DNA of 48,705 nucleotides from Chthoniobacterales bacterium. GTDB lineage: Bacteria; Verrucomicrobiota; Verrucomicrobiia; Chthoniobacterales; UBA10450. A program made the position numbers and the translations under genes. The notes beneath the pieces are model-generated. The model saw only the letters and a list, made by a program, of their open reading frames with translations, was not told where the DNA came from and did not search any database. The DNA lies in NCBI GenBank assembly GCA_025935755.1, contig JAICUQ010000007.1:1-48705 (forward strand), read 5' to 3'. Below, piece after piece: positions 30,476 to 47,626 of the stretch. The stretch's first letter is position 1; each line of letters opens with the position of its first letter.

Positions 30476-30565
30476 GGGAAGCCGAACGTTCGTCGCACCC
30501 CCTCCGGTTGTCTAGTATTGATCTAACCCCGCTCCACTGAGCCGTCTTATCGCGCTGGTCTTGAC

Positions 30566-38958: not shown

Positions 38959-39111
38959 GGGGAGCGCACGCATTCTGCGTGCTGGTGAAGGCATTCTGCC
39001 TCGCGACCAAGGGCGATCTACGTAACAGGATGCAGCCGGGGGATTCTACAGATTTCAGGTTCGTCGCCGCAGAATGCGGCGACCAGCACGCTGCAAGCGC
39101 GCGCTCCCCGG
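38959..39111. repeat. GGGGAGCGC...GCGCTCCCC element (family G), intergenic copy
   Basis: About 150 bases with inverted ends GGGGAGCGCACGC and GCGCGCGCTCCCC; inside are GCGTGCTGGTGAAGGCATTC on the left and CCGCAGAATGCGG then CCAGCACGC on the right. The copy at 44427-44574 inside uvrA shares the same ends and these inner words. It lies between pckG and uvrA. Confidence 0.8.
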
Positions 39112-39150: not shown

Positions 39151-42100
39151 GTGGGTTCGAAAATCGGGAATAAAGAGCGGGTCATCACTGCCGCACGGAA
39201 TGATCGCATCGAGATTTGCGGCGCACGCCAGAACAACCTCAAAGCGATCGACATCGATGTTCCGCTCGGAAAATTGACGGTTGTCACCGGCCCGAGCGGC
39301 AGCGGCAAGTCAAGCCTGGCGTTCCAAACGATTTACGCGGAAGGCCAGCGACGATACGTCGAAACGTTCAGTCCCTACATGCGGCAGTTCCTCGATCGAA
39401 TGGACAAGCCGCGCGTGGACGATATCCGGGGCATCCCCCCGGCAATCGCCATCGAGCAGTCAAATTCCGTCAAAACTTCGCGATCGACTGTCGGCACAAT
39501 GACGGAGATCAACGATTATTTGAAACTTCTCTGGCCGCGCATTGCGCATGCGTTCTGTCCGAGTTGCGGCCGTGAAATTCGCCCGGAAACCGCGCAGTCG
39601 ATCGCGGACCAGGTTCTACATCATTTTGGAACTGAATCAGCAGCAGTTGGGACACGCCAGGATACGGGGAGCGCGGGCGCCATGTCACCCGCTTCGCGTG
39701 ACACTTCCAATGACATAAGTGCATCGCTGCAGTACGAGTCGTCTCAGACGTTGACGCGGGGCGCATCAACGAGTGGGGGAGGCGCCCGCGCTCCCCAGAC
39801 CGTTCTCATCACGTTTTGGGTTGCAGTACCCGCGAAAACGGAGCCGCGGAAATTTTTCGATTTCCTCCAGCAGCAGGGATACATGCGCATCTGGATCGAC
39901 CACAAGATCATGCGCGTAGATGAACCGGATCCAAAAATCAAAAACCTCGGGGTGCGCGTGCAGGTCGTTCAGGACCGCATCGCGATCACAGGCGAAAACC
40001 GGACCCGATTAGTCGAAGCAATCGAGACCGCGCTGCGTTTTGGCAAAGGCCAGCTGAATGTAATTCGCATTGCGGAGAACGCCCAACCGGCTCGCAATGG
40101 TTCGCTTGCCGGTGCAGAGGGACGTCCAACGTCCAACGTTCAAGGTCGAACCGATCGCCGATCACCGATCACCGATCACTCTTTTCCTTTCTCGGCGGGT
40201 TGGCACTGTGCCTGGTGCGATTTGGATATTCGTCCGCCAACAGTAGGACTTTTCAGTTTCAATAATCCGCTCGGAGCGTGTCCTGATTGTCGCGGTTTCG
40301 GCCGAACGATCGCGATTGATCTTAATAAAGCCATTCCCGACCGCAGCCTCAGCATTAAACAAGGCGTTGTTCGCGTTTTCCGCGGCGCCGAGTTCGGCGA
40401 ATCGCAGAAAGATTTGCTCCGCGCATGCGCCCGGGAAGACATCGACATCAATCTGCCGTTCGACGAACTGCCCAAGGCCGATCAGGACTTTGTAATCGAA
40501 GGAGAGCGGCGATCAGGCGAATACACCGACGAAGACTACGAGGACCACCGCTGGTATGGAGTGCGCGGCTTTTTTCGGTGGCTGGAAAGCAAGACCTACA
40601 AAATGCATGTGCGCGTTTTGCTCAGCCGTTACCGCGCATACGTCACCTGCCCTAAATGCAATGGCGGCCGGTATCAGCCCGAAGCGCTCAATTACAGATG
40701 TAGCGCGACCGCCCCGGTTGCGAGTCTTACAAATCGCAAATCCGCCACGGCGAATTCGCCCTCCGGCGAACCAGGGGCATGCCCTACCTTCAGCCTTCCC
40801 GAGTTCCTGGCGCTCTCGATATCCCAGGCGCATGATTTTCTGCGCACGATGGAAGTTTCGCCTAACGACAAAACGGCGGAGATGCTGCGGGACGAAATTT
40901 GCGCACGACTCAATTATCTCTGCGAAGTTGGTGTCGGTTATCTCACGCTCGACCGATCCACGCGTACGTTAAGCGGCGGCGAAGTGCAGCGTGTAAATCT
41001 CACCACGTGTCTCGGCGCATCGCTGGCAAACACGCTTTTTGTCATGGATGAACCGAGTGTTGGGTTGCACCCGCGCGATGTCGGTCAACTGGTGCGCGTG
41101 ATGCATAATCTGCGCGATAAAGGCAACACGCTGCTGGTTGTCGAGCACGAGGAACAAATCATTCGTGCAGCGGATAGTTTGATCGATCTGGGCCCGGGTC
41201 GCGGTGAGCAAGGCGGCGAATTGGTTTGGAATGGTCCGTTGGATGAGTTCCTTCGGGCCGGCCAGCCCTCGGGCCATTCCGGCAAGGGGCGCAAGGGCGG
41301 GCCGATTCGGCGAGAAATTTTAGGCGGGCGACCGAAAATAGCGGGCGAGGGCGACCGCGCTCCCCAATCTTTAACGCATGATTATCTAACCGGACGTAAG
41401 TCCATTCCGGTGCCGACATCGCGGCGAAAGTGGAATTCATCGATCAAAATTCTCGGCGCGCACGAGCACAATCTGAAAAGCATCGATGTCGCGTTGCCGC
41501 TGGGCGTCTTCGCCTGCGTGACTGGAGTCTCCGGTTCCGGCAAATCCACTCTGATCCACGATGTGCTTTACCGGAATCTGCTGCGCGCCAAAGGGCAATC
41601 CTCAGATCAGGAACCGGGCGCATGCAAGTCGATCACGGGCACGGATCGAATCGGCGAGGTGGTGATGGTAGATCAATCACCGCTTGCTCGAACTCCGCGG
41701 TCAACTCCGATCCTTTATCTCGGTCTGTTTGATCAAGTTCGTGAATTATTTGCCGGGCAACCGGACGCGATCGCGCAGGGGCTGACCGCAGGGTCCTTTT
41801 CGTTTAACTCCGGTAATGGACGTTGCGAACGTTGCTCGGGCACGGGTCACGAGAAGATCGAGATGCAATTCTTGAGCGATCTTTATGTGCGTTGTGCAGA
41901 ATGCGAAGGTAAACGTTTCCAGCCGCACGTTCTGAAGGTGCGATTTCGTGGAAGATCGATCCAGGAGGTTCTCGAACTCACAATTCGTGAGGCGATTCAA
42001 TTCTTTGCGCAAACGGGTGAAGACTTCGGCGCGCGAATTTCAGACGGGCTTCGGGTGCTCGAGGAAGTAGGACTTGGATACCTGCGGCTGGGTCAACCGC

Positions 42101-45100
42101 TGAACACGCTCAGCGGTGGTGAATCCCAGCGGCTGAAATTAGTTGGGCATTTAGCTGAAAACGCCCAACGCCCAAATGGGAAAGCAATCGGCAACCAGCA
42201 ATCAGTAACTGGCAATCTATTCATCTTCGACGAGCCAACCACGGGCCTGCATTTCGATGATGTGGCGCTGCTACTGCAATTATTCCAGCGCCTGGTGGAC
42301 CGCGGGCATTCGCTTGTGGTGATCGAACACAATCTGGAGGTGATCAAGAGCGCCGATTGGATCATCGATCTCGGCCCGGAAGCTGGTGATGCGGGCGGTG
42401 AAGTTGTAGCGACTGGAACGCCGGAACAAATTGCGACAATTGATGGTTCCCACACTGGCAAGTTCCTGCGACGAATACTTTCCAAATCTCTCAAATCATT
42501 GCAGGTCATCCCGAGCCGCGAAGACGGCGAGGGATCTCAAAAACTCTCGCGCGAGTTGGAGAGATCCTTCGCGTACGTTCAGGATGACTGCGCTGAATTA
42601 GCGCGGGCCGCAGAAACTGCTCCACAGTTTCGCGCGGGTAATCGCAATGGCGCGATTCACGTTCGCGGTGCGCGCGAGCACAATCTCAAAAATATCGATC
42701 TGAAAATCCCGCGCGAACAATTGGTGGTCATCACGGGGTTGAGCGGTTCCGGCAAATCGACAGTCGCGTTCGACATCCTGTTTGCTGAGGGACAACGCCG
42801 GTTTCTCGACAGCATGTCGCCGTATGCGCGGCAATTCGTCGAGCAACTGGAAAAACCAGATGTCGACCTGGTCAGCGGATTACCACCCACCGTTGCCATC
42901 GAGCAACGTGTGACTCGTGGCGGAGGCAAGTCGACCGTTGCCACTGTGACGGAGGTTTACCATTTCCTACGGCTCTTGTTCGCAAAAACCGGAACCCAGT
43001 TTTGTCCCGACTGCGATTTGCCCGTACAAAAACAGAGCGCGGCTTCCATTGTGAAACAAATTGAGACCGCTGCGAAACGCGGTCCGTTAAAAGTGCTCGC
43101 GCCTTTGATCAAAGCGCGGAAAGGCTTTCACACTGACGTGGCGCGGTGGGCGGAGCGTCAGGGATTCGATACCCTGTACGTGGATGGAAAGCTCATTCCG
43201 ATCGGGCAATTCCGAAAACTCGAGCGTTTCAAAGAACACACCATTGATGTGGTGGTGGGCGTCATCAGTGTGGACGCGACGGCCTCGCCGCGATCTCACT
43301 CTGGTAACAAAGCGGCGGGGGCACCGCTTCCACATCGCTCAGCTCGGGACATCGCACATCGCGCGCTTGAAATTGGCCGGGGCACAGCGCGTCTGCTCGA
43401 TTCAAAAAATCGCGTCACGGTTGTGAGCACCGAGATGAGTTGCCCGAATTGCGGCCGTGCGTTCGAGGAACTGGATCCCCGGCTGTTCTCGTTTAATTCG
43501 CCGCATGGAATGTGTCAGGAATGCGGAGGGTTTGGCGAAATTTGGGACCGCGATTTACAAACGGGAGCGAACCGCGATGGCGAATCTGTGCTCGAAAGCG
43601 AGTTGGCTGCCGAACGGGAGTCCGAATGGATCGACCCAGGCGAAGCGCGTGAATGTCCAGGCTGTCACGGTTCACGTTTAAATGCGGAGGCTCGTCATGT
43701 GCGCGTGCAGGGCTACACGATCGATCAATTCACTGATCTGTCGGCGGGCGAAGCAGCGCGTGCAATCGCGAAGCTAAAATTTACAGGAAGAGATCAAACG
43801 ATAACCTCCGGTCTGATTCCCGAGATTCAACAGCGACTGCGGTTCATGGAGACCGTTGGTCTTGGTTATCTCGCGCTGGGGCGTTCCGCCAAGACTTTGA
43901 GTGGCGGTGAGTCGCAGCGAATCCGTCTGGCCGCGCAACTCGGTTCGAACTTGCGCGGCGTCCTTTACGTTTTAGATGAGCCAACCATCGGTTTGCATCC
44001 GCGGGATAATGAGCGCCTGCTCGAAACACTCACGACCCTGCGCAACAAGGGCAACTCCTTGCTTGTTGTGGAGCACGATGAAGAAACGATGCGCCACGCC
44101 GATCACATTGTCGATCTCGGGCCGCGCGCGGGCATTCATGGCGGCGAAGTAGTGACGAGTGGAACGCTGAGCGAGGTTCAGAAAAATTTAAAATCCGAGA
44201 CCGCGCGATGTTTGAAATCGCCACTTTGTCATCCCATTCGAGGATCACGCCGTTCGCTGCGAGATGTCGAAAAGTGGATCGAAATCCATGGCGCGCGCGC
44301 CAACAACTTGAAGAACATCGAAGTGCGTTTCCCGGTTGGGAGACTTTCGGTGATCACCGGAATTTCCGGCAGCGGCAAATCGACGCTAATGCACAGCGTG
44401 TTGTTGCCTCAGGTCAAAGCGGCTCTGGGGAGTGCGCGCGTTTCGCGTGCTGGTGAAGGCATTCTGCCTTCACGACCTTCCCAATTGTTTCTATGGGCTG
44501 ACAAGTTCCGAAAAAAGAAAAGTTCGTTGCCGCAGAATGCGGCACCCAGCACGCCACAGGCGCGCGCTCCCCGGAATGTCTTCATCGAAGCGGTGTACGA
44601 AGTGGATCAGTCTCCAATCGGCAAGACCTCGCGCTCGACCCCGGGAACGTACGTGAAAGTGTTCGATGAAATTAGAAATCTTTATGCGCAATTGCCGGTA
44701 TCACGGATGCGCGGCTATTCGGCGAGCCGGTTCTCGTTCAACGCCGAAGGCGGCCGCTGCGAAACGTGCAAGGGCCAGGGCGTGATCAAACTCGAGATGA
44801 ACTTTCTGCCCAGCAGCTACGTCTCTTGCGAAGATTGTCACGGCAGACGGTACAATCCGCAGACGCTGGAGGTTCTCTACAACGAGAAGTCCATCGGAGA
44901 CGTGATGGAAATGACCATCGAAGAGGCAGCGCAATTCTTTTCAGCGCATCCGAAGATTGCCCGTCCACTTTCGCTACTGGTGGATACCGGTCTTGGATAT
45001 CTGAAGCTGGGACAACCGAGTCCCACGCTAAGTGGTGGTGAAGCGCAGCGTCTCAAGCTGGTGACGCAATTGAAACGCGGCGTGAGCCGCGCTGCGAACG

Positions 45101-45435
45101 AGCGGATTCGAAAAATGCGCAAGCCCGGATCGACGTTGTATTTGCTGGAGGAACCCACGATCGGCCTGCACATGGCCGACATTGAATTGCTCCTCAACGT
45201 GATTCACCGGCTGGTTGATGAAGGGAATACGGTCATTATCATCGAACACAATCTCAGCGTCATTGCCGAAGCCGACTACATTGTTGACCTGGGTCCGGAA
45301 GCCGGTGCCAATGGAGGTCAAGTAGTCGCGTCTGGAACACCGGAGCAGGTGGCGACAAACCGTGTTAGTCGCACCGCGCCATTTTTGCGAAAGGCGCTGA
45401 AGACAGCAGGTCCGAAAGCTGCTCTGTCATCCTGA
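39151..45435 (+). CDS. uvrA: Double-length UvrA (four ABC modules in one chain)
   Basis: 2094 residues, about twice normal UvrA (~940). It reads as two UvrA copies in tandem, joined near residue 1120-1150. Four Walker A motifs are seen: GPSGSGKSS (near 47), GVSGSGKST (near 792), GLSGSGKST (near 1196) and GISGSGKST (near 1737); four LSGGE signatures near 608, 987, 1584 and 1961; four Walker B segments ([44 protein letters not shown]; the last has Glu for Asp). Zinc-module cysteines recur (CPSC, CAWC, CERC, CAEC, CPDC, CETC, CEDC). Normal UvrA works as a dimer, so this may be a covalent pseudo-dimer for damage recognition. It carries several repeat-derived in-frame insertions. GTG start. Confidence 0.95.
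39666..39796. repeat. Family G element inside uvrA (first half)
   Basis: Perfect 16-bp inverted ends GGGGAGCGCGGGCGCC and GGCGCCCGCGCTCCCC, 99 bases apart. The insertion is in frame and adds about 43 residues (near 172-216, low-complexity Ser/Thr/Gly/Ala) after the first CPSCGREI motif. Ends match the intergenic element at 38959-39111. Confidence 0.85.
40118..40192. repeat. CCAACGT run plus GATCACC run inside uvrA
   Basis: GGACGTCCAACGTCCAACGTTCAAGG is followed by GATCGCCGATCACCGATCAC and a CTCTTTTCC tail. The first part is the word of the hairpins at 4410 and 47534; the second repeats the run before tRNA-Val at 30566. It codes for about 25 residues ([21 protein letters not shown]) ahead of the CAWC zinc motif. 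Confidence 0.8.
40700..40787. repeat. GTAGCGC...GCCCTAC element inside uvrA
   Basis: An 88-base stretch with GTAG...CTAC ends that adds about 29 residues of Ala/Ser/Pro type between the [10 protein letters not shown] region and the LPEFLALS region. Resembles, in reverse orientation, the element at 4515-4582. Confidence 0.5.
42156..42220. repeat. CGCCCAACGCCCAA plus CAATCGGCAA run inside uvrA
   Basis: Words of the CCAACG family and of the CAATCGG family (compare 8968-9000) follow each other and encode about 20 residues ([19 protein letters not shown]). The insertion lies between the second LSGGE signature and its Walker B segment, a loop near the ATPase site. Confidence 0.75.
42505..42588. 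repeat. Family D element in the linker joining the two UvrA halves
   Basis: Bounded by GTCATCCCGAGC and GTTCAGGATGAC (inverted), with an inner GAGGGATCTC/GAGAGATCC pair. It encodes most of the linker between the two UvrA copies ([20 protein letters not shown]...). Confidence 0.8.
44427..44574. repeat. Family G element inside uvrA (second half)
   Basis: Ends GGGGAGTGCGCGC and GCGCGCGCTCCCC, inner words GCGTGCTGGTGAAGGCATTC and GCCGCAGAATGCGG followed by CCAGCACGC as in the intergenic copy at 38959. It adds about 49 residues between the fourth Walker A and the DQSPIGKT motif, where normal UvrA has a shorter loop. Confidence 0.85.
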
Positions 45436-45543
45436 GCGGAGCGAAGGACTCGCAATCAAAGTCGCCGCCTCACAGGGAACATAACGTTACCGTTGGGTTA
45501 TTGGGAGATCCCTCATCCCGCAGTCGCGGGATTGCGGATGACA
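45425..45543. repeat. Family D element containing the uvrA stop codon
   Basis: Bounded by TGTCATCCTGAGC and GCGGATGACA. The uvrA TGA is the TGA of CATCCTGAGC, so the gene's end is set by the repeat. Inner hairpin CCCGC-AGTC-GCGGG. Confidence 0.8.
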
Positions 45544-45549
45544 CGCCTT

Positions 45550-45614
45550 CTGTAGCCGTCGCCCTATGGGCGACGCACGTTTCGCGCACGTTTCGCGCAG
45601 CGAAACGGCTACAG
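45550..45614. repeat. CTGTAGCCG...CGGCTACAG composite palindrome
   Basis: Nine-base inverted ends enclose CGTCGCCC-TAT-GGGCGACG and a tandem GCACGTTTCGC. Belongs with the GCTACAG-ended palindromes near 636 and 5811. Lies 45 bases before the lgt start. Confidence 0.75.
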
Positions 45615-45658
45615 TTTGATTGCGCAAATTGATAACGTCGCTCAGAATCGCGGCCCAG

Positions 45659-47533: not shown

Positions 47534-47626
47534 TTGGGCGTTGAGCCTTGGGGGTTGAGCGTTGGGCGTTTTCCGAAAATGTTTTTCAACGCTCAACGTC
47601 CAACGTCCAACGCCCAACACCCAATT
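47534..47626. repeat. Solo hairpin of the CAACGCTCAACG-type repeat between tolQ and tolR
   Basis: Left arm TTGGGCGTTGAGCCTTGG plus GGTTGAGCGTTGGGCG, right arm CAACGCTCAACGTCCAACG plus TCCAACGCCCAA, separated by a short AT-rich loop around 47570-47588. The same words make the hairpin at 4410-4494. Here the arms bracket no gene. Confidence 0.8.

Follow-up and report, generated by a model that had tools for sequence, protein, structure and literature searches.

In-frame mobile repeats in a double-length uvrA of a Chthoniobacterales bacterium and their probable relation to transposases embedded in housekeeping genes

The window, i.e. the whole analysed stretch of 48,705 nucleotides from a Chthoniobacterales bacterium (JAICUQ010000007.1), is the complete contig G000:C177 of a 3.67-Mb draft genome and carries on the forward strand, at 39151-45435, a uvrA gene with a single open frame for a double-length UvrA of 2094 aa. 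Eight segments of this gene (S1 to S8) were studied as inserts. We consider it probable that the inserts stem from dispersed mobile repeats which entered UvrA loops, and that some of them come from elements of REP-associated tyrosine transposases (RAYT; REP, repetitive extragenic palindromic sequence; HUH/Y1 type) living likewise inside host genes. With belief and doubt in equal measure we propose further that in the Chthoniobacterales, including the genus of Candidatus Udaeobacter, RAYT without start and stop of their own survive by being translated as domains within essential proteins, pass from one gene of this kind to another and give rise to non-autonomous copies in UvrA loops.

Repeat blocks in the double-length uvrA

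An earlier, sequence-only reading of the window had placed copies of dispersed repeats at six sites of uvrA, all in frame and in loops, and the stop codon in a further copy at 45425. For the sites 39666, 40118, 40700, 42505 and 44427 copies were indeed found elsewhere in the genome, while 42156 could not be kept as a dispersed repeat: no second own-genome match was obtained at E<=0.05, though the length of this loop varies among relatives. Two further blocks had been overlooked, at about 41260-41365 (copies found) and at 43270-43333 (none found). The following features were distinguished:

39151-45435, forward strand: double-length UvrA, host of the inserts; its stop codon TGA lies inside the GTCATCCTGAGC repeat that starts at 45425
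39666-39796, forward strand: S1, 131-bp element with terminal inverted repeats (TIR), GGGGAGCGC...GCGCTCCCC, in frame (GSAGAM...RAPQ)
40080-40182, forward strand: S2, short-unit repeats TCCAACG / CGATCAC; left edge unsure
40699-40788, forward strand: S3, TGTAG...CTACC block, GTAG-REP-like
41260-41365, forward strand: S4, TIR right end GACCGCGCTCCCC; left edge unsure; absent from the sequence-only reading
42156-42218, forward strand: S5, loop of variable length, without a second own-genome copy at E<=0.05
42505-42588, forward strand: S6, 84-bp palindromic block GTCATCC...GGATGAC where the two UvrA halves meet
43270-43333, forward strand: S7, GTGGACGCG...GCTTCCAC block, in frame; no second copy found
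44427-44572, forward strand: S8, 146-bp TIR element GGGGAGTGC...GCGCTCCCC
38959-39109, forward strand: intergenic element upstream of uvrA, a sister copy of S8
45425-45620, forward strand: downstream repeat cluster, the GTCATCCTGAGC repeat with the stop codon followed by GTAG-type repeats

Dispersed copies in the own genome thus belong to S1, S2, S3, S4, S6 and S8. The right part of S1, the block S3 and both parts of S6 are copied on other contigs, the short repeats of S2 recur at 30564, at 47589 and on other contigs, the right part of S4 matches 13 other places of the genome, and S8 matches the intergenic element at 38959-39109. S3 resembles a GTAG REP in its TGTAG...CTACC ends, as compared by eye with PMC3733652. 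The TGA stop codon was located, as claimed, within a repeat, TGTCATCCTGAGCGGAG. The 14-mer seed of a k-mer family, TTGTCATCCTGAGCGGAG, occurred six times in the 295 kb of own-genome sequence searched, 3 kb of which were counted double. Within a 274-kb sample of the genome, uvrA had the most repeat-covered bases (336 bp in four islands) among 247 open reading frames (ORFs), which were called mechanically and are in part over-extended or spurious; 39 of these had any repeat coverage. The GTAG-type repeats of the downstream cluster also flank the RAYT of locus L149 and occur about 0.9 kb from that of locus L161.

In an alignment with 71 non-redundant homologues the window UvrA differed by a block from many relatives at the sites of the sequence-only reading. 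Orthologues with the same residues at the same places would have spoken for ordinary protein sequence; mostly a short loop or an unrelated repeat was found instead. At the S1 site (aa 172-217) the GGGGAGCGC...GCGCTCCCC element was present in the window gene alone among the rows listed. The site is a short loop in L011, L017, L012, L043 and many others; L039, L010, L021 and L041 have another repeat there, HFERSREIP...RDSST...RND with varying ends, and L020 and L079 a third one, GGRGGSPNRPRAIGVNRPYL. Among rows more than 70 % identical the length of the S1 site ranged from 3 to 75 residues (34 measured rows) and that of the S4 site from 0 to 52 (41 rows). The GTCATCC element at the S6 site (aa 1119-1148) is common to many species, and unrelated elements occupy this site in others. 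Some blocks are common to few close species: the S7 block is similar in the window, L011 and L015, is replaced by other residues in L013 and L022, and is rare among relatives (5 of 45 measured rows at least 12 residues above the minimum). Taken together, these comparisons support the insertion reading of the uvrA blocks. Relatives (L028, L041, L079, L072, L039, L010, L012) have inserts also at UvrA aa 955-965 and 817-823, where the window has none.

The first half of UvrA aligns with the PDB UvrA chains 2r6f and 9gxk, and the alignment breaks fall at insert sites. An AlphaFold2 model of this half (36 sequences; model residue r corresponds to gene aa r+11) had a mean predicted local distance difference test score (pLDDT) of 78.5 and a predicted template modelling score of 0.71. 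Eight stretches were below a pLDDT of 50, and six of them (152-200, 301-329, 519-528, 698-724, 999-1006 and 1105-1149) coincided with all six insert sites of the first half, the remaining two being 1-4 and 94-103. The insert sites have in this model the low confidence that disordered loops have, and the placement of the blocks in loops of one open frame agrees with the sequence-only reading. The ratio of nonsynonymous to synonymous divergence (dN/dS) was 0.09 for the UvrA core, 0.42-0.63 for the inserts S1, S2, S3, S4 and S6, 0.25 for S5 and, mostly reflecting the ancestral loop, 0.15 for S8; the calculation was limited to inserts sharing at least 55 % identity between two species, which lowers the insert values.

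Relation of the inserts to RAYT termini

Three of the eight segments, S1, S4 and S8, matched termini of RAYT elements by blastn at E<=0.01, and none of 41 uvrA control tiles did. For S8, 113 matches at 48 loci were obtained, the best of them (E 5e-10, 83 % over 53 bp) to the recG elements of the genomes G018 and G034; S1 had 26 matches at 17 loci (best 3.6e-6) and S4 eight matches (best 2.6e-6). The intergenic sister of S8 gave 85 RAYT-terminus matches at 42 loci, the best with 94 % identity over 51 bp and an E value of 2.7e-14. The resemblance extends to the translated ends, which in S8 are similar to those of the RAYT elements inside recG of G018 and G034; the end peptides of the former (GSARLQRAGDGILPSRTS ... 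SSPQNAATGTLQACAP) resemble S8 as well as its counterpart in L011. In the own genome, the element in alaS starts with GGGGAGCGCGGGCGCC and ends with GGCGCCCGCGCTCCCC, as S1 does, and the end of the recG element, GGGTAGCGCACGCG...CGTGCTGG, is resembled by S8. The reading phase of the TIR elements was the same in 22 of 24 in-gene elements. S1, S4 and S8 are probably non-autonomous derivatives of TIR-bearing RAYT transposons of the HUH/Y1 type.

RAYT elements in frame inside housekeeping genes

A search of the own genome for Y1 transposases gave eight matches, three of which are not separate genes and lie in frame inside alaS (L144), recG (L142) and tsaC/sua5 (L143). By eye, the recG and alaS copies have inverted ends and the Sua5 copy has the same repeat on both sides. 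Host and transposase form one open frame in recG, alaS, metH, thrS, leuS, carB and tsaC in genomes of the order, where 124 of 213 genomes matched the recG transposase query at 1e-6; by hand count, 125 of 150 among the matches listed were in open frames of at least 400 aa. The analysis covered 118 loci (eight own, then 20, 30 and 60 stretches; of the 60, 59 contained a RAYT domain and the other, L251, is a uvrA), which yielded 104 rows and, after removal of identical and short copies, 101 transposase sequences. As loci were chosen mostly for long frames, the 84 sequences in such frames represent no frequency.

Hosts were assigned by blastp against masked references: RecG (38), MetH (14), AlaS (13), CarB (5), TsaC (4), LeuS (4), ThrS (3) and an MmeI-like protein (1), with one PriA and one MqnA recognized by eye only. 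Both flanks matched the same host in 79 of the 104 rows, counted before de-duplication. In representative proteins, NCBIfam recognized RecG, AlaRS, MetH, ThrRS, CarB and LeuRS in separate stretches with REP_Tyr_transpos between them, and the TsaC insert is flanked by the Sua5 N- and C-terminal Pfam domains. All nine fusion proteins matched REP_Tyr_transpos (NF047646) at E<=1e-5. Single copies scored 56 to 80.6 bits, only L158 exceeding the 80-bit cut-off, and L208 reached 125.5 bits over two stretches. This L208, a metH frame of G007 (1230 aa, truncated at the contig end), has two RAYT transposases at two sites. In recG of G028 (L278) the element looks composite, with extra repeat-like residues between left end and transposase, as if one element had entered another. 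No intein family was present among the matches at E<=1e-5, neither for the nine fusion proteins in NCBIfam (for L200, the best 25 of 37 families) nor for eight of them in Pfam. By eye, GGGGAGCG fits seven of the eight positions of the GGGGWSAS motif, which PMC3733652, in its accessible text, gives for some TIRs only.

The in-frame RAYT transposases extend, to judge from sequence, beyond the order. Phylum-wide, 13 of 150 among the RAYT matches listed were in frames of at least 400 aa; because order and phylum listings were ranked with different queries, 125 of 150 and 13 of 150 are no fair comparison of rates. All 13 were inspected by eye: two are in-frame insertions (leuS in L318, alaS in L319), four are apparent end fusions (L320, L321, L323, L327), and the rest look like chance frames of high GC content or repeats. 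L318 and L319 belong to other families of the phylum, and their hosts were named by eye from flanks that they share with L144 and L246. In L323 and L327, also from other families, the RAYT domain appears by eye to be C-terminal on a kinase and a nucleotide pyrophosphatase frame.

State of the embedded transposases and their sites

Among the copies in frames of 400 aa or more, 79 of 84 retain both the HUH motif and the catalytic tyrosine, as do 16 of 17 in shorter frames; the own recG and tsaC copies look intact at these residues. Seven usable pairs (dS <1.5) of the 91 formed by 14 chosen RecG fusions gave median dN/dS values of 0.096 (transposase), 0.085 (RecG) and 0.40 (translated termini). 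In these few measurable pairs the embedded transposase is under purifying selection. An ATG within about 20 codons upstream of the core was present in 5 of 67 embedded copies of the recG type, compared with 855 of 2227 host control windows; recG-type copies in short frames had none in seven (four not measured). The embedded frames of the recG type continue through the right element end. In all of six short-frame copies the frame extends beyond the left end in the upstream direction; five of these upstream parts contain a methionine, and in five copies the stop comes only after the right end. With few upstream ATGs and frames passing both ends, the main RAYT lineage appears to use the start and stop of the host gene.

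Occupied and empty sites exist side by side. The recG site, measured by anchor motifs, could be determined for 19 of 30 loci: 13 contained the transposase (196-261 residues), five were empty (17-24 residues), and L277 had 73 residues with element ends and without transposase. For alaS, 15 of 30 loci were measured, three of them full and 12 with 15-55 residues. The recG site of G015, whose RecG is about 90 % identical to that of the window genome, is empty, and in one genus the site holds two different RAYT subfamilies. G022 and G023 have each one occupied and one empty recG, which suggests mixed bins or strain variation. In a tree of 94 transposases the host label, with unassigned counted as a label, changed 21 times, the least possible number being 10 and the mean of shuffled labels 52; the transposases are clustered by host gene, yet moved between hosts several times.

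Proposed explanation and alternatives

Mostly palindromic mobile repeats would enter loops of UvrA in frame and would be kept because their frame there contains no stop codon and because additional disordered residues are tolerated in these loops. In the same manner a TIR-bearing RAYT, open from end to end in one frame, would enter a gene and, when landing in a loop and in phase, leave a surviving protein with an extra domain. The transposase would then be made together with the host protein and, to go by known RAYT biochemistry, act on TIR DNA; internally deleted copies, suggested by the common ends, would spread to intergenic DNA and to tolerant loops as in UvrA. From the sequences we infer that the fusions are translated whole, that the embedded transposase is active, and that it, or a relative of it, mobilizes the uvrA copies.

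Several observations weigh against this explanation. S2, S3, S5, S6 and S7 had only weak or distant matches in a comparison with 28 RAYT loci, in which three control tiles likewise matched weakly (E 0.008-0.022). The lengths of the in-gene elements, with TIR ends as defined here, are 1 or 2 modulo 3; they stem from 58 strand-wise candidates, for palindromic elements about half as many elements, mostly around uvrA and RAYT. In the own alaS copy a tyrosine replaces the first histidine of HUH, so that this transposase is probably inactive. Alternative starts are possible: an ATG near the core occurred in 7 of 13 embedded copies of the sua type, and ATG, GTG or TTG within 20 codons upstream in 22 of 48 recG-type copies, a count without chance baseline for GTG and TTG. 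RAYT and RecG have similar synonymous divergence and the RAYTs cluster by host, so many copies look old and vertically inherited. S5 and S7 gave no other copy in the own genome, and the genomes are drafts, mostly metagenome-assembled genomes (MAGs).

The vertical signal is the core of one alternative, which we regard as possible though less convincing: the RAYT in RecG, AlaRS and MetH would be a long-fixed domain of benefit to the host, and the uvrA inserts old debris with little present mobility. The dN/dS of about 0.10, the synonymous divergence close to that of host RecG (seven usable pairs) and the clustering by host gene are in its favour, and the accessible part of PMC8049555 describes vertical inheritance and domestication for free RAYTs elsewhere. 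Domestication fits poorly with eight host families by profile or blastp and a further two recognized by eye, with repeated transfer from host to host, with the uneven occupation of the recG site inside one genus, where two RAYT subfamilies occur, and with very different inserts at one uvrA site in related species. It is unlikely that the blocks are ordinary fast-evolving loops whose resemblance to repeats is compositional or coincidental. The sites 42156 and 43270, without second copy, and the relaxed constraint on comparable inserts (mostly 0.42-0.63 against 0.09 in the core) would suit such loops; six of the eight blocks, however, match DNA copies elsewhere, three match transposon termini as none of the 41 control tiles does, inverted terminal repeats are present, and unrelated families occupy one site. 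Ordinary hypervariable loops were rejected for S1, S2, S3, S4, S6 and S8 on the DNA repeat matches and are possible for S5 and S7.

Host proteins with conserved cores might also result if the inserts were removed from RNA or protein like introns or inteins, or skipped by the ribosome, leaving a normal protein. This is very unlikely, as the inserts are stop-free and in frame, which neither skipping nor RNA splicing needs; the matches listed for the fusion proteins included no intein family, and no intron search was made. An assembly artefact joining repeats to genes in metagenomes is hardly credible. Draft genomes and the paired occupied and empty recG of G022 and G023, which hint at mixed bins, would allow for it, whereas the structure recurs in many separate assemblies, some contigs exceeding 100 kb (G167:C9, G182:C2, G166:C41, G128:C32); the frames there are open, the catalytic residues are mostly preserved, and dN/dS is low in the tested pairs.

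Relation to known systems

Inteins with homing endonucleases place a mobility enzyme as an in-frame insert into essential proteins at recurrent sites. The embedded RAYT may be regarded as analogous in the in-frame mobility enzyme, the essential hosts and the recurrent sites, with the difference that the matches listed contained no splicing domain and no removal is expected; if the proposal is true, they live much as inteins do, but are not spliced out. An entering transposon would be expected to disrupt its host gene; here the transposase itself appears to be produced within enzymes such as RecG and alanyl-tRNA synthetase, as an internal part of them.

The Rickettsia palindromic elements (RPE; Ogata 2000), as summarized in the accessible parts of PMC10969869 and PMC2229807, are palindromic repeats that inserted in frame into genes of conserved proteins, which apparently tolerate them. 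In-frame palindromic repeats in ORFs are a feature of the uvrA inserts as well, and the likeness drawn by the sequence-only reading is apt as to how the insertion works. It concerns the insertion mode and not the RPE sequence, and the uvrA inserts were not filed as RPE. No transposase is tied to RPEs in what PMC10969869 and PMC2229807 offer in accessible text, whereas here the TIRs of three inserts belong to in-frame RAYT. If true, the proposal bears on the movement of small in-frame repeats, a question for future work in the accessible part of PMC2229807.

REPs inside ORFs, notably of DNA repair genes, are described in PMC3733652 (Di Nocera 2013; accessible text), where both uvrA genes of the verrucomicrobium Opitutus terrae are doubly interrupted. 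These intragenic GTAG and CGTC REPs are repeats within ORFs as found here, and S3 looks GTAG-like by eye. Compared with that description, the present case has more sites, more repeat families per gene and TIR-type inserts, and the transposase itself is in frame within genes, which the accessible text does not describe for those REPs. The same text names as TIRYT, or TIRtrons, RAYT-like genes with terminal inverted repeats, and the elements found here are alike in the HUH/Y1 transposase between TIRs beginning with GGGG and in dispersed TIR repeats; there, as far as that text goes, genes are flanked by TIRs, whereas here host, TIR, transposase, TIR and again host lie in a single frame. By the ATG measure the recG-type copies lack the usual RAYT trait of a separate gene with own start and stop, which the RAYT profile does not require; for ordinary RAYTs, Rayt stop codons are mentioned in the accessible part of PMC2817692. 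A few unexpectedly long Y1 proteins were put aside as fusions or annotation errors in PMC6006769, as far as accessible. A literature search, mostly without subscription papers, found no report of RAYT transposases that lie in frame within housekeeping genes. The uvrA inserts add a case to a kind already known, and the in-frame transposases are, by that search, a new form of a known kind. If the proposal holds, they provide a system in nature where mobile DNA makes proteins grow, and a warning for annotation, as long housekeeping proteins of this soil group may contain transposase domains.

Further observations on UvrA

The same genome has a second UvrA on contig C131, named by eye, with a canonical length of about 1000 aa (1004-aa frame); unlike the double-length UvrA it has no repeat blocks visible by eye (L315, G000:C131:18500-26500). 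In L251 (G057:C55:27000-36000) uvrA lies in an open frame of 2599 aa, most full frames having about 1900-2100 aa. The uvrA relatives are mostly MAGs of soil Verrucomicrobia, and the UvrA protein of the genus mate G006 (L021) is identical to L116 from Candidatus Udaeobacter sp. AEW3.

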